Both the position numbers and the translations under genes were made by a program. The notes under the pieces are model-generated. The model did not search any database and was not told the origin of the DNA. It saw only the letters and a list, made by a program, of their open reading frames with translations. Positions 1,936 to 29,229 of a DNA stretch of 29,541 nt are shown here, one piece after another. The DNA comes from a virus. Numbering within the stretch: position 1 is the first letter of the stretch; every line of letters starts with the position of its first letter. The stretch lies in IMG/VR virus record IMGVR_UViG_3300047470_000091, positions 1 through 29,541 of that record; one strand, 5' to 3'.

Positions 1936-4350
1936 TCACACGGAAACCCAGTTGCCGCCGGACGAGACGACGGTCACGGACGCGCCAGCCGCGACAGTCT
2001 TCGTCGCCGAACCGTCGATCGTCTCGCTTCCCGCCGCCGCTACCGTCAGGGTGTTCGTCCCGGAGTTCTTGAGCGTGTACACGTTCGGCGTGTTCGCCGC
2101 GGAGATCAGGGTGACGGTGAAGCCAGCGCTGGTCGTGTTGCAGACGAGGTATCGGTCAGTGACGCGTACCGTCGCCGTTCCGGTCAGGCCGCGGACACCG
2201 GTCGGGTTCTGCCCGTCGATGATCGTCAGGCCCGTCGTGTGCCCCGACGTGCTCAGGTTCGCCACCGTGTAGAGGCCCGTCAGCTTGATCGTCCCCCGCG
2301 CAGCCGCCAGGCCAGTGCCCGACGTGGTGTCGGCGAAGGTGGGCGTCGACGTCTCGGTGTCGAGTTGATCGATGTCGATGAACGGCCCGATTCCTCCGCT
2401 CCCAACGCCCACAATTAGGACGTTGTTCGTGCACGCCTCCACGCTGAGCTGAGCCGCCTTGATCGCGTGCGTGGCGCCCACAGAACCGAAGTAGAGGCCG
2501 ACGACGCAGAACCCCGACCAGCAGTAGAGCAGCCGCATCGTGTCAACTACGGTGTGCTCCGTCGCGTAAAACGCGTACGTGTAGCCACCGTGCACCGACA
2601 CGTTCTTGACGATGCAGTAGTCGTTGTTCCCGGCGGCCGGCATGAGAGCGCCGATCGAGAGTCCGTTCGCGAACTGGTTCGGGGAGGCGAAGTCGCCGCT
2701 CGGTACCGTCCCCGTTGTCCCGATCGCGATGTTCTCCACGTGGGCGTTCGCGATGCCGGAGAAGTCGAACGCGGTGTACGTCAGGCCGTAGAGGCTGTAC
2801 GCCGTCAGGATCGAGAGATCCTTCAAGCTGATCAACATGTTCGAGAACACACCGGGCGCCACACCGTAGCCGCCGGGCTGCGCAGGGCCTCCCAGTACGG
2901 CGGGGTTGCCGTTCGCGGTGATCGTCGACGACTGCGCGCTCACGCCCGAGTTGACGCCGAAGCTGACGATCGTGGAGCCCGACGTCTGCGGGACCGTCTG
3001 CTCCCAGTGCTCCAGAGCGGCGCCGTTCGTGATCCCCTCAATCGTCAGCACGACCTTCCGCGCCGTCGACGAGACGACAGGGATCGTGAGCTGCGAGTTC
3101 CCCAGCGTCGTTCCGCCAGTGACACGCGCGCCTCCCACGCCGTAGAAGCCGCTAGAGGCGGGGATGAAGACTCGGGCGGCGCCGGAGTTGTTCAGCGCCC
3201 ACGAAACGGCGGCATTGATCGCCGCCTGAATCGCCGACGTGTCATCCGTCGCCCACATGACGATCGCGCCGGACACCGTCGTCGACGCGGATGCGCCTAG
3301 CGTGACGTGACCGGAGTCCGTGAACGCCGTGATCGTGGTGACGAGGGTCGTCACGCCCGTCGCAGCCGCGCCCTTGACCATGACGACCTTGCCGACGTCA
3401 GTCGACGCAAAGGGCGTCGACGTGGCGCAAGTCAGCGTTGCGGACCCCGACGTCATGGCGCCGTCCGACCTCACCTTGCCGTCGCCCTTGGCGCCGTACG
3501 CGGCCTTCACGTTGAACACCCAGTCGCCCGTGTCGGCCTTGCTCAGCGGGGAGTAGGTCGACGCTGCGTCGCTCGTGGAGAGAGCCCCGATGGCCGCTGG
3601 AGTGACGCCCAGGTTCGTCCGCGCGACAGCCGGGTCCGTCAGTTCGGAGAGATTCCCCTCCGCCTGCAGGTAGGCGGCGTCAGCGCGCGTCACCTCCGCC
3701 GAGATCTTCGTGTCCGTGTAGGTGTGGGCAGACGTCAGGGCCGTTGCAGCAGCTCCGGCCTGATCCGCGCCCACGTTCGAGTAGTTCAGGGTGACAGCGC
3801 CAGTGAAGCCGTTGACCGACGCCACGGCGCCGCCGCTACCGAGCGCGTGACCCGACGGCCAGGCGCCGGACGCCTTCGGGCCGTAGATCGTCCACGCCAC
3901 GTAGTCGAGCCAGTAGTCCCCGTTCGTGCCGTCACCCGACGTCGGGGCAGTCGTCCCGGAGAGGATCGTCTTCCCCGCGGGGCCTGCGACGAGGACGAAG
4001 TCACCGGGCGCAGACGCAGCCGGCGCGATGTCCGCGAGGTCGATCGTCCCGGACGCCTCCGGCAGCGCGATGTAGTAGGTGCGGGTGCTGATGTCGGTCA
4101 ACACTTCCGTCACCGTGTACGTGAAGTTCGTGGGCCGCGCGTCGGTGTTGTCCGTCGCGATCAGGACGACGGAGAAGGCGCCGTTCGTGTCGAGCGTCAC
4201 CGTCACGGCGCCCACGGACGTCGTGTCAGCGCCTGGAAGACGCACGTAGTCCGGGGCGGCGAACCGGACGGTACCGGTCAGTGGCGTCCCGTCGGGACGG
4301 ATGTAGCGACCGGTCAGTGTCACGGTCGTGATGCCTGAAGGCATGGTCAT
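1936..4350 (-). CDS. Tail fibre / spike with pectate-lyase-type beta-helix
   Basis: The start chosen is the ATG at 4350, which overlaps the upstream stop as ATGA and has GAGAGG nine bases upstream; this gives 804 residues. A longer frame to 4413 adds a low-complexity Arg/Pro lead and is unlikely. Residues 1-120 look like a beta-rich attachment domain. Residues about 172-215 (GSGGAVASVNGFTGAVTLNY) and 230-270 resemble phage fibre linkers. FNVKAAYGAKGDG at 279-291 and DDTSAIQAAINAA at 369-381 are the two halves of the usual pectate-lyase-3 entry motif, here split by about 77 residues. A beta-helix-like Ser/Thr/Gly-rich body follows. The C-terminal 100 residues (TLKNSGTNTLTVAAAGSETI) resemble a domain common at phage fibre ends. 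Probable role: receptor binding or surface-polysaccharide cleavage. Catalytic residues were not identified. Confidence 0.82.
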   Translation of the reverse strand: MTMPSGITTVTLTGRYIRPDGTPLTGTVRFAAPDYVRLPGADTTSVGAVTVTLDTNGAFSVVLIATDNTDARPTNFTYTVTEVLTDISTRTYYIALPEASGTIDLADIAPAASAPGDFVLVAGPAGKTILSGTTAPTSGDGTNGDYWLDYVAWTIYGPKASGAWPSGHALGSGGAVASVNGFTGAVTLNYSNVGADQAGAAATALTSAHTYTDTKISAEVTRADAAYLQAEGNLSELTDPAVARTNLGVTPAAIGALSTSDAASTYSPLSKADTGDWVFNVKAAYGAKGDGKVRSDGAMTSGSATLTCATSTPFASTDVGKVVMVKGAAATGVTTLVTTITAFTDSGHVTLGASASTTVSGAIVMWATDDTSAIQAAINAAVSWALNNSGAARVFIPASSGFYGVGGARVTGGTTLGNSQLTIPVVSSTARKVVLTIEGITNGAALEHWEQTVPQTSGSTIVSFGVNSGVSAQSSTITANGNPAVLGGPAQPGGYGVAPGVFSNMLISLKDLSILTAYSLYGLTYTAFDFSGIANAHVENIAIGTTGTVPSGDFASPNQFANGLSIGALMPAAGNNDYCIVKNVSVHGGYTYAFYATEHTVVDTMRLLYCWSGFCVVGLYFGSVGATHAIKAAQLSVEACTNNVLIVGVGSGGIGPFIDIDQLDTETSTPTFADTTSGTGLAAARGTIKLTGLYTVANLSTSGHTTGLTIIDGQNPTGVRGLTGTATVRVTDRYLVCNTTSAGFTVTLISAANTPNVYTLKNSGTNTLTVAAAGSETIDGSATKTVAAGASVTVVSSGGNWVSV

Positions 4351-4661
4351 GTGGTGTCGCCTCTCTGCTGGCGGCTCAGAAGCAGGTGTTCGGCGTCGTG
4401 GCCGGCCTGCCACTCGCGCACGCGCGCTACGTCCTCGCGGAGTTCGCCGACGTCAGAGCGCAGCTCGTCCTTCACGCCGTCGATGCGGGCGCCCAGGACG
4501 TCGCCCAGGGCGGTCAGTTGGTCTCGGGTAGCCGCGCCGTCCGCCTCAACTGCGCCGCGATGGCGACGCAGGATGGCCAGGACAGCGGGAACGGCCCCGA
4601 TCAGGGCGGCGCCTAGGACAGCGCAACCACCGATCAGGGCCGCCAAGATCTCCGGTCCCAC
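4347..4661 (-). CDS. Single-TM coiled-coil protein of the lysis region
   Basis: The 104-residue protein has one N-terminal hydrophobic segment, about residues 6-31 (AALIGGCAVLGAALIGAVPAVLAIL). A basic stop-transfer stretch RRHRG and a long charged helix with heptad-like spacing (DQLTALGDVLGARIDGVKDEL and onward) follow. It resembles the small TM-plus-coiled-coil proteins (DUF2746-like) found beside endolysins in actinophages, sometimes annotated as second holins. It starts at GTG 4661, one base after the endolysin stop, and ends in ATGA overlap with the tail fibre, so translation is likely coupled. A role in lysis (holin partner or wall-spanning factor) is inferred from location only. Confidence 0.68.
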   Translation of the reverse strand: MGPEILAALIGGCAVLGAALIGAVPAVLAILRRHRGAVEADGAATRDQLTALGDVLGARIDGVKDELRSDVGELREDVARVREWQAGHDAEHLLLSRQQRGDTT

Positions 4662-6563: not shown

Positions 6564-7669
6564 GAGTCGTCCTCCTTGCCGCCGCGCAGGCTCACCGAGA
6601 ATGAGCCGTCTGCCGTCAGCGGGATCGACGCGGACTGGAGGATGAAAAGCTCCTTCCGGTCGGCGTAGGAAATGCGCAGACAGTCCCCGCCGTCGAGCGC
6701 CGGGTTAGGAATCGAGTCAATGGAGGTCGCCACGTTAGGCGCTATCGCGTCGAAGAGCGCGTACTCCGCCGCCGCTTGGCACGCTCCGACCGTCGTCCAG
6801 AGGGACGAGGAAATGAACTTTGGCACCTTGCCGAACGGTCCGCCCCACACGGTCGGGCTCAGAGGGTCGTCATCGTAGACAACGGCGCTGACGGGTGCGA
6901 TGTTAGAGGCCGTGTTCTCGCCGGACGCTACAACGGCGTTGTAAACAGCCGTTCTTGACATCTGACGCGCGGCGGACATCAGCGTTCCGCCCTCTCCTTC
7001 CGCGATGTCCCAAACAACACGGGAGGACAACACTTCCGGAACATCAGCAATCACGAAACGGTCCAGGGCATCGACGTAAATCTCCGCCTGCATTGCTAGG
7101 GCTATTTGCTGAACGGCGTCCCAGCGGTCCGCGTTGGCGTCCCACGTCGTGATCGCACACGCTGGATTACGGCTGTCGGACGTTGAGTTGACGATTACGG
7201 AATCCGGTAGAGTTTCCCGGATCAGGGCCGTAATGGCGTCAACGCACGTCGAGTAACCCCGCGTTGTCTTGGGCGTGAGAAACTTGTCGTCGATGATGTA
7301 GCACTCCGACGATTTGCCCGTCAGGGTTACCGGTCCAAAGTGCACGTCCCCTTGCGGCTCGTCGATCCGGAAAGTTCCTAGGGGAACCTCCTCCACGACT
7401 CCGCCGGAAAAGCGGATACCTCGTGTGATGACGAGCGACTGCCCATAAGCAGCCAGCGGGTCGAGCGGATTCCACGGCAGATACTTCGGGTTGCTGACCG
7501 TCAGCGAAAGAGAGCGACGGACCTTCGACCCACGGTCAACCGTCACCGACCCGTCCTGAATCGGGAGGTCGGCAACGGTGAGCGCACCTTCGTAAAAGGC
7601 CTGCGCGCGGACGGTGATGGAGTGCGACGTCGTCAGAGCCTGTAGGAACCGAGCAGATACGGCGTACAT
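6560..7669 (-). CDS. DUF5047-like minor tail (hub) protein
   Basis: The 369-residue protein begins MYAVSARFLQALTTSHSITV, followed by IQDGSVTVDRGSKVRRSLSLTVSN. This opening matches the actinophage DUF5047 tail family. The middle (about 60-215) resembles tail-hub folds, including LGTFRIDEP and GKSSECYIIDDKFLTP. The C-terminus (about 310-369; NPALDGGDCLRISYADRKELFILQSASIPL) looks like the gp27/Tal-type closing domain. It starts in TGATG overlap with the upstream minor tail gene and ends in ATGA overlap with the OB-like gene. It probably forms the ring at the tail tip below the tape measure. Confidence 0.8.
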   Translation of the reverse strand: MYAVSARFLQALTTSHSITVRAQAFYEGALTVADLPIQDGSVTVDRGSKVRRSLSLTVSNPKYLPWNPLDPLAAYGQSLVITRGIRFSGGVVEEVPLGTFRIDEPQGDVHFGPVTLTGKSSECYIIDDKFLTPKTTRGYSTCVDAITALIRETLPDSVIVNSTSDSRNPACAITTWDANADRWDAVQQIALAMQAEIYVDALDRFVIADVPEVLSSRVVWDIAEGEGGTLMSAARQMSRTAVYNAVVASGENTASNIAPVSAVVYDDDPLSPTVWGGPFGKVPKFISSSLWTTVGACQAAAEYALFDAIAPNVATSIDSIPNPALDGGDCLRISYADRKELFILQSASIPLTADGSFSVSLRGGKEDDS

Positions 7670-19617: not shown

Positions 19618-20430
19618 TCAGGTCGGAAGGTGAATGTCGTTGGGGCCCGTGAATCGCTGGCCCTTGAAGCCCAAGACGGGACCGATCTCTCCGTGCTCGT
19701 GGGCGATGATCAGCTTTCGGTAGTCGACGGCGCGCGCTCCGCGGTCGAAGGTTCCGAGCGCCGCCTCTACGGCTGCGTGGATGGCCTCTAGCTTCGCCTC
19801 GTCGACGACCTGGCCCGGGTCAAAGTCCGACCTGACCGTCTTCACGAGGCAGTCACAGCCAGGGTGGATCGGGAGGAGGTTCTTCTTCCGGTAGCGCTGC
19901 GTCGACGCGATCAGGCAGAGCGCGCAGTTGTGCTCTCCGATCGGCTCACGGATCGTGTATTCCACGCCGGGCTGATCGTCGGTGACCTCAACCACGGTGT
20001 GCGTGCGCGTGAGCTGCAGGTCCGTCTTCACAAGGCTGTTCAGCCGGTTGGAGCCACGCTCCACGGCGACGTCAAGTGGCTCGTCCTTCGACAGCGCGAG
20101 CCACACCTCTTTGAACGGGCGCTCGTAGACCTCCGCCGGCTCCACGCCGTTACGGATCGCGGCTCCGGTGACCTTGTCGAAGTCCAGGTCCACACGAGAC
20201 GACTCGTCGGCTATCTCGCGGTACAGCCGCTCCAGGTAGGTGGTCGTGAGACTCGCTACCTGTCGCTGGCCGGCGACGAGGATCGGCAGGGCCGACTTCT
20301 GGAAGCCGTCGACGTCAGAGCCACGCCAGGACTTCAGCCCGGACCACTGACGCGTCATGTTTCCCAGGACGCTCGTCCACACGCGCCGGACCGACGCGTC
20401 GTAGCGGAGGTCAAGCGGCGTTAGCGTCAC
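19618..20430 (-). CDS. MuF-like minor head protein
   Basis: GTG at 20430 (GAGGGA seven bases upstream, 20-base overlap with the portal) is preferred and gives 270 residues. The frame extends to 20493 but that adds low-complexity sequence inside the portal gene. The motif EHNCALCLIASTQRYRKKNLLPIHPGCDCLVK (about 170-205) combines CxxC with HPGCDC and matches the C-terminal region of MuF-domain head-morphogenesis proteins. The N-terminal helices (WRGSDVDGFQKSALPILVAGQ) probably contact the portal. The protein is probably ejected or structural inside the head. No toxin domain is seen at the C-terminus. Confidence 0.82.
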   Translation of the reverse strand: MTLTPLDLRYDASVRRVWTSVLGNMTRQWSGLKSWRGSDVDGFQKSALPILVAGQRQVASLTTTYLERLYREIADESSRVDLDFDKVTGAAIRNGVEPAEVYERPFKEVWLALSKDEPLDVAVERGSNRLNSLVKTDLQLTRTHTVVEVTDDQPGVEYTIREPIGEHNCALCLIASTQRYRKKNLLPIHPGCDCLVKTVRSDFDPGQVVDEAKLEAIHAAVEAALGTFDRGARAVDYRKLIIAHEHGEIGPVLGFKGQRFTGPNDIHLPT

Positions 20431-23630: not shown

Positions 23631-24098
23631 CTAGCCTGTTAGACGGGCACGGCGGGACGAGATGTCAGTGACGTTCTGGGAGGCCGCGTGAGGGGCACTC
23701 GTGGGCTTCGCGGAGGGGTCGTCGACCTTCAGCTTCAGGCGGGCTCTGTCCTCCGGCGTGGCGCCGAACTTGGCCGCTCTGAGCCGTACTTCGGCTGCTA
23801 GCGTCCACTGGCCCTTTCCCCACATGGAGTGGTGCATCAGGGCCGTGTCGATGAGGAACGCCCAGTCCGTGTCAGTGAACGTCTGAGCCTGCGGGGAGCG
23901 ACGCCAGGTGTCCCACCACGCGTGCGTCATGGGATGCCACTCGTACGGGTCGCCGTCCTTGTCTTCTCCTAGCACCCCCTCCGGAAGCTCCGGTCCGCGA
24001 AGCTCGTCGTCGGGGACGACCACCGTCTCCGCGGGTCCGTCAGCGTTGCGCCGACGTCGCTTCGTTGGGTCCTTGGGGGCGGGTCCACGTCCGGCCAT
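23631..24098 (-). CDS. terS: Terminase small subunit, P27-like
   Basis: The 155-residue protein starts MAGRGPAPKDPTKRRRRNAD, the signature opening of P27-type small terminases. It is followed by an acidic linker (about 28-48) and a helical core (HPMTHAWWDTWRRSPQAQTFTDTDWAFLIDTALMHHSMWGKGQWTLAAEVRLRAAKFGATPEDRARLKLKV) and a Ser/Ala-rich tail. It recognises the packaging site and recruits the large subunit. The GGGAGGT Shine-Dalgarno eight bases before the ATG lies in one arm of a predicted hairpin (24107-24146), so its translation may be restrained. Confidence 0.9.
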   Translation of the reverse strand: MAGRGPAPKDPTKRRRRNADGPAETVVVPDDELRGPELPEGVLGEDKDGDPYEWHPMTHAWWDTWRRSPQAQTFTDTDWAFLIDTALMHHSMWGKGQWTLAAEVRLRAAKFGATPEDRARLKLKVDDPSAKPTSAPHAASQNVTDISSRRARLTG

Positions 24099-26043: not shown

Positions 26044-26051
26044 GCGTCTTG

Positions 26052-26124
26052 TCGGGATAGCAGGACTCGAACCTGCGGCCCTCCGCTCCCAAAGCGGAAG
26101 CTCTTCCATCTGAGCTACATCCCG
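26052..26124 (-). tRNA. tRNA-Pro(TGG)
   Basis: The 73-nt cloverleaf is complete: acceptor CGGGATG/TATCCCG, D-arm GCTCAGATGGAAGAGC, anticodon stem TCCGC/GCGGA with loop TTTGGGA (anticodon TGG, codon CCA) and T-arm GCAGGTTCGAGTCCTGC. The discriminator is A; CCA is not encoded (the sequence continues CA). It is the last of the tRNA cluster in transcription order. Confidence 0.9.
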
Positions 26125-26129
26125 TGGAG

Positions 26130-26196
26130 TCGACAGCGAAGGAATCGAACCTCCGTCTCCGGACCCTTAGTCCGGTGATCTCACCCCTAGCAGTCA
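26130..26196 (-). tRNA. tRNA-like element with reduced D region (anticodon loop AAG)
   Basis: The 3' half is tRNA-like: anticodon stem CCGGA/TCCGG with loop CTAAGGG (T33, anticodon AAG), then AGAC, T-arm GGAGG-TTCGATT-CCTTC, and acceptor 3' strand GCTGTCG plus A. The nearest 5' acceptor strand (TGACTGC, ending at 26196) pairs with one T-T mismatch. It leaves only 14 bases before the anticodon stem, too few for a normal D-arm. A better-matched 5' strand (CGGCAGC then TA and a GG-containing D-like arm) lies at 26285 but would imply an 80-base insertion. AAG would be a leucine anticodon, yet there is no long variable arm. It is probably a degenerate or noncanonical tRNA. Confidence 0.45.
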
Positions 26197-26437
26197 GTCC
26201 CGCAGGCGAGTGCCATGGTCAACCCTGCGGCGAGATGCGTAGCGGTACGGCCCCGTTGCCGGGGTCGCCATTGATCTAGCTGCCGAGAACAAGACCCTGG
26301 CCACAAGGGACAGGGTGAGTTGTGCTGCCCGGGTCCCGCCGTCGGACAGCGTCGCGGAGGATCGCCCAGGCAGCCAATACCTTGCTCATCCGCTACTTCG
26401 GGCGCGCGCTGCGCAGTCGCACACGGGACGCCCCTTG

Positions 26438-26510
26438 AGCCTCCGGCAGGGTTCGAACCTGCGACCGTCGCCTTACGAGGACGCTGCTCTACCAACTGAG
26501 CTACGGGGGC
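26438..26510 (-). tRNA. tRNA-Thr(CGT)
   Basis: The 73-nt cloverleaf has acceptor GCCCCCG/CGGAGGC (one C-A mismatch at pair 4-69), D-arm GCTCAGTTGGTAGAGC, and anticodon loop CTCGTAA (anticodon CGT, codon ACG). The anticodon stem is closed except for a terminal G-A pair, and the T-arm is GCAGGTTCGAACCCTGC. CCA is not encoded. The two mismatches suggest a phage-drifted but probably functional tRNA. Confidence 0.85.
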
Positions 26511-26551
26511 GAGACAGCAAGTGGGGATTGCTCCCGGGTCGCTGCTCGTGG

Positions 26552-26623
26552 CTCCTCACACAGGATTCGAACCTGTACTTACCCACTCCAGAGGCGGGCG
26601 TGCTGCCGTTACACCAGCGAGGA
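26552..26623 (-). tRNA. tRNA-Gln(CTG)
   Basis: The 72-nt cloverleaf has acceptor TCCTCGC/GTGAGGA with one G-T pair, D-arm GTGTAACGGCAGCAC, anticodon loop CTCTGGA (anticodon CTG, codon CAG) and T-arm ACAGGTTCGAATCCTGT. The discriminator is G and an encoded CCA follows at 26551-26549, unlike the Pro and Thr genes here. Confidence 0.9.
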
Positions 26624-26883: not shown

Positions 26884-26996
26884 TGATCACGACCGGATTT
26901 GAACCGGCGTCTACCCATGGGCTGCCACTTGCCGTCGAGACGGCGGGACTCGATCCCTACTCCGTGGGGCGTGCTAGGCCGCTGCACTACGTGACC
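26884..26996 (-). tRNA. tRNA-like element with intact acceptor, D- and T-arms but no normal anticodon arm
   Basis: The minus strand gives acceptor GGTCACG/CGTGATC (seven pairs, one wobble), D-arm GTGC-AGCGGCCTA-GCAC, T-arm GCCGG-TTCAAAT-CCGGT and discriminator A. Between D-arm and T-arm are 62 bases where a class I tRNA has about 23. I checked every 5-bp stem with a 7-base loop in this stretch and found none with T at position 33. Inside are GCCGTC/GACGGC and CCCATGGG inverted repeats. It is either a tRNA with a roughly 40-base insertion in or near the anticodon loop, or a pseudogene. Confidence 0.5.
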
Positions 26997-26997
26997 G

Positions 26998-27048
26998 CCC
27001 TCCCCCGTCCGGGCTTCGATCGGGTCGAAGTCCCATGCACCGGGAGGG
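26998..27048. other. Extended hairpin beside the tRNA-like element
   Basis: CCCTCCC (26998-27004) pairs with GGGAGGG (27042-27048). Inside, GGGCTTCGA and TCGAAGTCCC form a second helix with one bulge. It begins two bases from the 5' end of the tRNA-like element and may be a processing or termination structure. Confidence 0.4.
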
Positions 27049-27246
27049 GAGACGAAGATGGCCGGCGTGCTGCGACCACGCTTCAACCCGGAGGAGAGTG
27101 CGGGGAACGCGGGAGCATCGCCGACCATCATGAGGGAGAGGTCCGTCCGCCACTCGCGACGGTCGCTCGTCCTCCCTCTACTGTTGTTATGGGTATGGCG
27201 TGAGGGGTAGCCGCTGGAGCGTCCTCCGAGGCCCCTGGTCGAAGTG
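27049..27246. other. Gene-poor stretch
   Basis: No supported gene was found. A minus-strand frame from 27131 has a coding-like first 50 codons but no ribosome-binding site and then runs through the tRNA-like region. The rest is without recognised features. Confidence 0.35.
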
Positions 27247-27317
27247 TCAAACTAGACCCCTATTTTCTATTCCTCTTAACACGTGTTAGAAGGGCTAGAA
27301 AATAGGGGTTAGTTTGA
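27247..27317. repeat. Near-perfect 71-bp AT-rich palindrome
   Basis: Arms at 27247-27282 and 27283-27317 are complementary over about 35 positions with one bulged G and a few mismatches near the centre, meeting at CACGTG. Shared arm segments include TCAAACTA, ACCCCTATTTTCTA and TAACACG. The arms are clearly more AT-rich than the surrounding sequence. There is no T run on either side, so it is not a standard terminator. It may be a replication or partition site, a cruciform, or a binding array for a dimeric protein. Confidence 0.9.
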
Positions 27318-27380
27318 GCTTTTAGCACCCTGCAGTGACTCTGCGTTCAACTGCGAAGCCATGACGGTCACTTGCCGTAG

Positions 27381-27401
27381 TTATCCACAGGTGCCTGTGG
27401 A
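27381..27401 (+). other. DnaA-box-like inverted pair
   Basis: TTATCCACA at 27381-27389 is an exact DnaA box. Eight bases of it join a perfect inverted repeat (TCCACAGG and CCTGTGGA, 27384-27401), and the opposite strand reads CCGTCCACA, seven of nine against the Streptomyces form TTGTCCACA. It lies 63 bases from the large palindrome in a stretch without a convincing gene. Confidence 0.55.
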
Positions 27402-27511: not shown

Positions 27512-29164
27512 CTACAGCGTGGCCTGATGGAGCGCTTCCTCCAGTGCAGCCGCCTCCGGATCCGGCTGGTTCGCGTAACCCATGCTGAACGCCATGCGCG
27601 ACTCGTCCAGCGACCGCCATCCGCCAGAGACGCCCTTGCGGACGCTGACGCGGACGCCCGCGTTCATGAGCATCTGCCGGCGCTCAGCAGCGTCGATGAG
27701 CTGTCGCTCCTCCTCCGGCGCGTCGACGAGCGGCCCCCACTCGTCGGCGTACGTCCGGTCTGTCGGGATCTCGACGCGGCTTGGCTCGATCTTCGGCGTG
27801 GCCTCCAGCTCCGCCATGCGGGCATCAAGCGCGTCCGCTCTGGCCTGCCATGCTGACTGCCCGGCTTTGGACTTCTGGCGCCCCTCCTGCGCTTGATGCT
27901 CGGTGAATTCCTCGATCGTGGCTTCCAGTTCCGGTGTCGGGTCGTAACCGGTCGTCTCGATAATCTCGACGACGCGCAGCGGTCCGGCTCGCATCAGGAA
28001 TTCGCGCTCTACGTACGCCTCCGCCCACTCCTGCTTTACCACCGTGGGCTCAGTGCAGGTTCCTTGACGCTGACGCGCTCCGCACTTGAACGACGCCGGT
28101 CGACCGCCCTGTTTGGACAGGTACATAGCGCCGTCACATCCTGCGCACGTAAGGATGTGCAGCAGCCATGAATCAGTGTCCCGACGAGGTCCGTTGTTGA
28201 ACGCCCTGTCGTTGAGTTTCTTCCCGATGAGGTCGAACTCAGGTCGGGTCAGGATGGGCTTTGTTGTCGCCAGTACGGGCCGACCTTCGCCGTCTCGGAC
28301 TGGATTACCCCGATGCGTCTTCCATCCGAGGAGGGTGACGTTCCGGAGCATGGCCGTAATGGCAGTTCCGCTCCAAAGGAATCGCTCGCGGGTCTCTTGC
28401 CGACGAGTGCTCTTAGGGCCCGTCGACTTACCGCCGTCCTCCCGCCCCTTCTTCCGGGACCAGTAGTCACGGGGAGACGGAACACCCGCTCCGTTCAGTT
28501 CGATGGCGATGGTCGTCGGGCTCATCTTTCCGTCGAGTAGCGCCTTGATGATCCGCTCAATGACCTTGACCGCATCAGGGTCGGGGACGAGGGTCCAGCC
28601 TGCGCCGCCGTGCTCTTTGGGCATGGGCTCCGGCGTGTACCCGTAGGGCGGACGAGAGCCACGCCAGCGGAGCGGCATCTTGCGAATGGCTGCCTGCGCG
28701 CCCATCACCCGGTCGCGGATGCTCATCGCTTCGACCTGTGCGGCGAAGGCGAAGAAGACCATCATCAGTTCCGCGATGGGGTCCAGCGGGTTGCGGAAGT
28801 CGAACGTCAGGGTCGACCCGCCGCCGATGCCCTCAGCGAAGACGAGCAGCTTGCGATGCGTTCGTGCCCACTTCGCCAGCTCGTACATGTCGGCCATGGA
28901 ACGGATGGCACGGTCGAACCGCCACCAGACCAGTGCGTCGTACTCCTCCGGCCGGCGCAGCCACTCCCCTAGCTGCGGGCGCTCGAACGGCGAGGTTTTG
29001 GAGGCGCTGACGTCTAGGTCTTCCGCCTCCCTGTCGCCGAAGTCAATGTTCAGTTCGTCGGCCGCACGGTCGTCGGCTTCCCGCTGACGATCTGGGCTGG
29101 TGGTCTCGTCGGTGAGTACGCTGAGGCGAATACAGCGCACGCCACGAAGTCGTTTTGCTGCCAC
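27512..29164 (-). CDS. int: Large serine integrase
   Basis: The 550-residue protein starts at GTG 29164 with AAGGGG upstream. The resolvase domain carries RCIRLSVLTDETTSPDRQ with catalytic Ser15, later WRFDRAIRSMADMYEL and VEAMSIRDRVMGAQ. The recombinase domain begins near RGSRPPYGYTPEP (169-180). A zinc ribbon uses C340, C343, C361 and C370 (LTCAGCDGAMYLSK), and a coiled-coil region lies around 410-455. This is the phiC31/TG1/Bxb1 type, which recombines attP with attB using short palindromic sites and no host factor; excision needs a directionality factor not identified here. A candidate attP lies directly upstream. Confidence 0.95.
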   Translation of the reverse strand: MAAKRLRGVRCIRLSVLTDETTSPDRQREADDRAADELNIDFGDREAEDLDVSASKTSPFERPQLGEWLRRPEEYDALVWWRFDRAIRSMADMYELAKWARTHRKLLVFAEGIGGGSTLTFDFRNPLDPIAELMMVFFAFAAQVEAMSIRDRVMGAQAAIRKMPLRWRGSRPPYGYTPEPMPKEHGGAGWTLVPDPDAVKVIERIIKALLDGKMSPTTIAIELNGAGVPSPRDYWSRKKGREDGGKSTGPKSTRRQETRERFLWSGTAITAMLRNVTLLGWKTHRGNPVRDGEGRPVLATTKPILTRPEFDLIGKKLNDRAFNNGPRRDTDSWLLHILTCAGCDGAMYLSKQGGRPASFKCGARQRQGTCTEPTVVKQEWAEAYVEREFLMRAGPLRVVEIIETTGYDPTPELEATIEEFTEHQAQEGRQKSKAGQSAWQARADALDARMAELEATPKIEPSRVEIPTDRTYADEWGPLVDAPEEERQLIDAAERRQMLMNAGVRVSVRKGVSGGWRSLDESRMAFSMGYANQPDPEAAALEEALHQATL

Positions 29165-29183: not shown

Positions 29184-29229
29184 GTGGTAGTTCAGAGTAT
29201 CCGGAGATCCGGAGATATGAGACTACCAC
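29184..29229. other. Candidate attP (or integrase operator)
   Basis: This 46-bp imperfect palindrome has exact 8-bp outer arms (GTGGTAGT and ACTACCAC). The inner symmetric segment is TCCGGA-GA-TCCGGA, leaving a non-palindromic central dinucleotide GA at 29206-29207. Size, symmetry and position 19 bases from the start of a serine integrase gene match known attP sites. A repressor operator is the main alternative. Confidence 0.6.

Follow-up and report, generated by a model that had tools for sequence, protein, structure and literature searches.

An AT-rich palindrome between the integrase and tRNA genes

The stretch of DNA analysed here in full (the window) is a viral record of 29.5 kb. It is evidently a fragment, in which the early region is missing, so that the primase gene lies outside it. 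A palindrome at positions 27247-27317 is flanked on one side by a large serine integrase gene (27512-29164, minus strand; Pfam PF00239, PF07508 and PF13408), whose 3' end is ~195 bp away, and on the other, towards the terminase genes, by a tRNA cluster (26051-26623, minus strand; ARAGORN and Rfam tRNA). An additional minus-strand match to Rfam tRNA at 26884-26996 (43 bits over 113 nt) was missed by ARAGORN, and this tRNA-like gene holds an insertion of ~40 nt. Closer to the palindrome is a promoter-like element of the tRNA/late region (27186-27204, minus strand), with CATAAC at 27186-27191 and a CTCACGCC block upstream. The minus strand at ~27000-27190 also holds a non-coding block (CTCTCCTCCGGG...GCGCGG) that is conserved in relatives after the promoter of the corresponding copy; it matched no Rfam family and could represent a structured leader RNA for the late region. 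On the integrase side, a DnaA-box-like TTATCCACA (27381-27389), the sole TTRTCCACA of the window, overlaps a small inverted repeat CCACAGGTGCCTGTGG (27385-27400), together occupying 27381-27400 on the plus strand. The DnaA-box-like site is retained beside the corresponding copies of relatives, with one mismatch in Streptomyces phage Samy.

The first-pass annotation had described this locus as an inverted repeat centred on CACGTG, with nearly perfect arms of about 35 bp, a composition unlike its surroundings and no T runs. The inverted repeat is real: its axis falls at 27282/27283, within CACGTG (27280-27285), and its ungapped palindrome score of 15 is above the 13 reached at most when the whole window was dinucleotide-shuffled 25 times. 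The contrast in composition was also borne out, with a GC content of 38% against 66% for the window, the lowest of all its 71-mers. Neither a terminator-like T-run nor an intrinsic terminator was found near the palindrome. The arms are imperfect: a long inverted repeat, reaching TCAAACTA(G)ACCCC...GGGGTTAGTTTGA, does exist once a single 1-bp bulge is allowed, but several mismatches lie close to the centre, and the ungapped arms are 27 nt long with 85% complementarity. Compared with its own reverse complement, the 71-bp palindrome matches at 86% (E=1e-17). Its single-strand folding z-scores are -4.6 as DNA and -5.4 as RNA, values that no shuffle equalled.

Within the palindromic core, which has no assigned strand, the conserved blocks are CCCCTATTTTC and GAAAATAGGGG, and the innermost units are TCAAACTAG (27247-27255) and TTAGTTTGA (27309-27317). 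Alignment with 15 homologues delimits a whole element at 27223-27342 (minus strand), comprising the palindrome and weak outer inverted units. These outer units of ~9 bp are clearest in three related records (G003, G008 and G009), while the window shows the poorest iteron clarity, its palindromic core dominating.

Two copies of the palindrome in Samy and its relatives

Streptomyces phage Samy carries a homologous palindrome at the same location as that of the window. Scanning viral contigs with the pattern CCCCTATTTTC-N-GAAAATAGGGG returned seven related contigs, and a looser scan returned two more (L055 and L070). In all, ten or more related phage records have the Samy-type palindrome at homologous positions, and the exact pattern occurs in 0 of 393 Streptomyces genomes. 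A covariance-model search of three Streptomyces genomes gave no match either. Hairpins containing CCCCTATTTTC in L026, in G004 (terminal repeats of a 132-kb phage record) and in low-GC contigs were judged unrelated, and an 83-bp inverted repeat by a resolvase-like gene of a Streptomyces echinoruber sequence (L011, 4599-4681) has a sequence unrelated to that of the window palindrome. The suggestion that the palindrome is recently acquired DNA is contradicted by its homologous positions in these phage records, and by the analogous element found there in phiC31 and others.

Seven genomes, Samy and six more, hold two copies about 28-32 kb apart, a spacing that amounts to 44-53% of record length in six records of 58-64 kb. 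The 'end' copy is flanked by int and the tRNA/late region, whereas the 'mid' copy lies before the first early gene; the window fragment has the end copy only. In nine of ten cases the mid copy stops 132-137 bp short of the start codon of an exonuclease gene (AGVSTIKRG), and in one record (G001) the second copy matches in the opposite orientation. In three Streptomyces chromosomes that carry a related integrase, just one copy per chromosome was detected; a primase homologue went undetected in two of the three, and these loci are perhaps remnants.

Palindrome identity is 82% within a genome versus ~76% between genomes, whether the same or the other position is compared. We conclude that the two copies evolve together, and the sequences behave as if both copies were tracking one phage protein. 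Compensatory changes occur at 7 of 16 consensus pairs of the arms, although such covariation is not enough to establish a structural role, since quasi-palindrome correction during replication could give the same pattern. Two copies that are so alike might also be those of a selfish mobile palindromic repeat with no phage function. We regard this as highly improbable in view of the fixed homologous positions across many genomes, the absence from the 393 Streptomyces genomes and the maintenance of arm pairing by covariation.

The centre of the palindrome varies, being TAACGCGCGTTA, with alternating CGCGCG, in several homologues and CACGTG in the window; in the clearest copies of the Samy/window type the core reads TTTCTCTCTAACGCG on both strands. 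The TAACGCGCGTTA centre, set in a nearly perfect palindrome, prompted us to consider the target of a protelomerase, which would form a hairpin telomere. Samy, however, is of the cos type and its prophage is integrated (PMC11302927), and no protelomerase is among its annotated genes. As the centre is itself not conserved and phiC31-type relatives do not have the palindrome, we give a hairpin telomere almost no credence.

Serine integrase attP sites are imperfect palindromes, and the palindrome adjoins such an integrase, as its attP might. In Samy, however, attP lies upstream of int: a vector carrying Samy 56,510-58,494 integrates, and this interval excludes the palindrome at 58,654-58,759 (PMC12924846). 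The type of element is also uncoupled from integrase lineage, as the window integrase is 53% identical to that of phage Vash and 25% identical to that of Samy, yet the window palindrome is of the Samy type. Moreover, there are two copies per genome, and phages that have no integrase retain the element. We therefore reject an attP at the palindrome, on Samy's mapped site and this uncoupling, as extremely unlikely. By analogy with the Samy attP, a candidate attP of the window phage is the inverted repeat GTGGTAGT...ACTACCAC at 29184-29229 (no strand assigned), just upstream of the integrase and away from the palindrome.

A wider family of twin elements in phages with the phiC31 replication module

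Self-BLAST detected a distant intergenic twin, in the form of direct repeats of 103-247 bp at equivalent positions, in 12 of 12 tested phages sharing the phiC31 replication module: Samy, phiC31, phiBT1, TG1, Vash, Euratis, phiSASD1, CallinAllBarbz, ObiToo, GardenState, Quenya and Abigail. With Arthrobacter as host for CallinAllBarbz and ObiToo, and Microbacterium for GardenState, Quenya and Abigail, the family spans Streptomyces, Arthrobacter and Microbacterium. The twin of phiSASD1 is weak (E=2e-4), and the controls, three only (R4, Turj99 and VWB), have no distant intergenic twin. The phage group of Samy has four common protein clusters, a primase and a polymerase among them (PMC11302927). 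Quenya and Abigail keep the twin without an annotated integrase or repressor, and their cluster has been reported to be without either (PMC7302621). The element is thus not about lysogeny.

In the usual anatomy, a core rich in AT and in pyrimidines has two to three iterons, each 8-9 bp long, on one side and inverted iterons on the other, so arranged that the repeats face inward. Iteron types differ, and within the TGACG type their positions are nearly fixed: +11, +19, -87 and -95 in phiC31; +17, +25, -94 and -102 in phiBT1; and +16, +24, -93 and -101 in Vash. Other types are the AGGGC-type of Quenya and Abigail, inverted GTCCCA in phiSASD1, and GGTGTTGAGGGTG arms in a Streptomyces termitum sequence (L004). 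Inverted iterons around an AT-rich core were seen in phiC31-type, Arthrobacter and Microbacterium members, as well as in phage P4.

The twins of phiC31, phiBT1, TG1 and Vash resemble the window element in occupying the same two genomic positions, which in phiC31 are int/tRNA and repressor/gene 1 (repeat at 21.65 and 40.44 kb), in their similar size and in their AT-rich core. They differ from it in sequence, with TGACG-type iterons, an asymmetric core and no giant palindrome. The two types are linked by a Streptomyces atratus sequence (L007), which combines TGACG iterons of the phiC31 type with the Samy-type core TTTCTCTCTAACGCG. Most relatives have the iteron-core-iteron array, the long hairpin being absent. 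From this comparison we infer that symmetrisation of the family's common core gave rise to the giant palindrome. phiC31 thus carries an equivalent pair; the literature searched, which did not include the main phiC31 genome paper, contained no earlier account of the twin element in phiC31 or other phages.

This comparison also bears on whether the palindrome is a bidirectional transcription terminator, as a long stable RNA hairpin placed after one gene and ahead of the following transcription unit might be. The phiC31-type equivalents have arms ~60-70 bp apart and form no terminator hairpin, and Samy has a separate GC-rich hairpin directly after int. The palindrome itself has no T-run, is not a GC-rich hairpin at 38% GC, and is conserved in its sequence beyond what pairing would demand. 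We reject termination, mainly on the missing T-run and the phiC31-type equivalents, and rate it very unlikely.

The neighbouring promoter-like element and a possible control function

A regulatory element would be expected upstream of promoters, and both copies do lie there. In 13 of 16 copies the CATAAC promoter-like element was found ~65-97 bp from the near edge of the 52-bp palindrome block, or 117-149 bp when measured from where that block starts. Together with the narrow range of distances between mid copies and the exonuclease start codon, and with a sigma-factor-like gene common to most of the group, this arrangement would suit a twin control element, at which a phage or host regulator co-switches the adjacent early and late promoters, or which insulates the lytic operons from upstream genes. 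Several observations argue against such a role. In Samy, the same promoter occurs at no fewer than three further sites without a palindrome. TGACG iterons are common to phiC31-type and Arthrobacter-type phages despite extremely diverged sigma-like proteins, and Quenya and Abigail have other flanking genes and no lysogeny genes. Judged by sequence, the promoter-like CATAAC element is separable from the palindrome. We consider transcriptional control, the main rival to the reading favoured below, possible but unlikely.

Samy (L037) also has a dispersed promoter-like repeat, GCGTCACAT-N16-ACGACATAACCC, at 23688, 26539, 32045 and 44762, which is probably the phage's own promoter class.

P4-family primases and putative twin replication sites

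The primases of 12 of 12 twin-bearing phages, and that of Streptomyces phage BayC, score above the curated TIGR01613 threshold ('phage/plasmid primase, P4 family'); the primase-helicase is gp9a in phiC31 and SAMYPH_63 in Samy. In seven IMG/VR records with a Samy-type palindrome, the encoded primase is 66-77% identical to that of Samy. Iteron type is concordant with the C-terminal part of the primase for Samy and Quenya and discordant for phiSASD1, whose primase C-terminal part is 59% identical to that of phiC31, yet whose element has no TGACG iterons.

Phage P4 requires both ori and crr in cis, and its annotated record is consistent with this, labelling crr 'cis required region for replication'. 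In that record, one strand of the crr unit has 8-bp repeats at 4314 and 4323 and the opposite strand has them at 4366 and 4384, with a repeat period of 9 bp and a pyrimidine-rich core of 31% GC, and the ori-crr distance is 43% of the genome. P4 therefore resembles the twin family in having two far-apart cis sites, inward repeats around an AT- and pyrimidine-rich core and a TIGR01613 initiator. In contrast to the twins, the two P4 sites are not duplicates of each other, and crr is a 120-bp tandem pair; unlike the window element, neither P4 site is a long palindrome, and the P4 repeat sequence, GGTGAACA, differs.

The winged-helix domain of P4 alpha binds origin repeats, and unwinding and priming follow (PMC4234260). 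The Sulfolobus plasmid pRN1 has a 100-bp stem-loop, its putative origin, that is needed for replication (PMC4234260). It shares with the window palindrome a long structured element, the integrity of which is required for replication in pRN1, where the replication protein has an SF3 helicase (PMC4234260); it differs in its archaeal-type primase, in its single site downstream of the replication gene and in its unrelated sequence. BayC (L051) has three inverted-arm intergenic copies of 250-330 bp (7322-7648, 19625-19876 and 41958-42285), one of which adjoins the gene for its primase, a diverged P4-family member; multiple origins are a possible explanation of the three elements.

In view of the P4-family primases, the P4 crr plan, the P4 alpha and pRN1 precedents and the BayC copies, we favour, as probable though well short of certain, a pair of matching sites that resemble ori and crr and onto which the P4-family primase-helicase would load. 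The palindrome would form the core of one of them, a core that would have become a giant palindrome in this lineage. The lack of a distant twin in the three controls, the greater likeness of copies within a genome, the covarying arms and the S. atratus sequence also speak for this reading. The computed basis consists of the paired copies, their conserved positions, the iteron-core-iteron anatomy of relatives, a P4-family primase in every examined relative and the absence from host genomes; that the primase binds the element, opens its core and initiates there is what we infer. Assignment to a P4 ori/crr-like class is a prediction of function, made from the family of the primase and from how the element is built in relatives. 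Of the functions raised in the first-pass annotation, an origin or strand-initiation site, with a phage protein recognising it, has the best support on the strength of the paired copies, iteron anatomy and primases. Points against this reading are the placement of both copies upstream of promoters, the discordant primase of phiSASD1, the single copies in the three Streptomyces chromosomes, the opposite orientation in G001, and the weak iterons of the window together with its missing primase gene. GC and AT skew did not locate an origin: the Samy minimum lies near the mid copy, and the phiC31-like switch follows gene class.

In the proposed mechanism, the phage's P4-family primase-helicase would bind the short inward-pointing repeats that flank the core. 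The AT-rich core would then be opened, and in this lineage that core is a long palindrome that could extrude as a hairpin. The primase-helicase would load as a helicase and prime synthesis. The second site lies ~30 kb off, before the first early gene. A more elaborate form of this mechanism, in which the origin is paired and read by its structure, the core extruding as a cruciform, the twin copies about half a genome apart cooperating, and an iteron origin turning into a hairpin origin by core symmetrisation, is speculative, and we regard it as rather improbable.

As short origin candidates, the twin elements would be available in at least 12 sequenced phages of three host genera. The Samy-type palindromes would represent a natural case of an iteron site becoming a hairpin site. 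Few Streptomyces phages are as widely used as phiC31 and its relatives, and a description of their replication origin was not found in the literature searched. The phiC31 genome also has repeated CCTACTCACGTGAGTAGG palindromes; these are separate from the twin and are probably its repressor sites.
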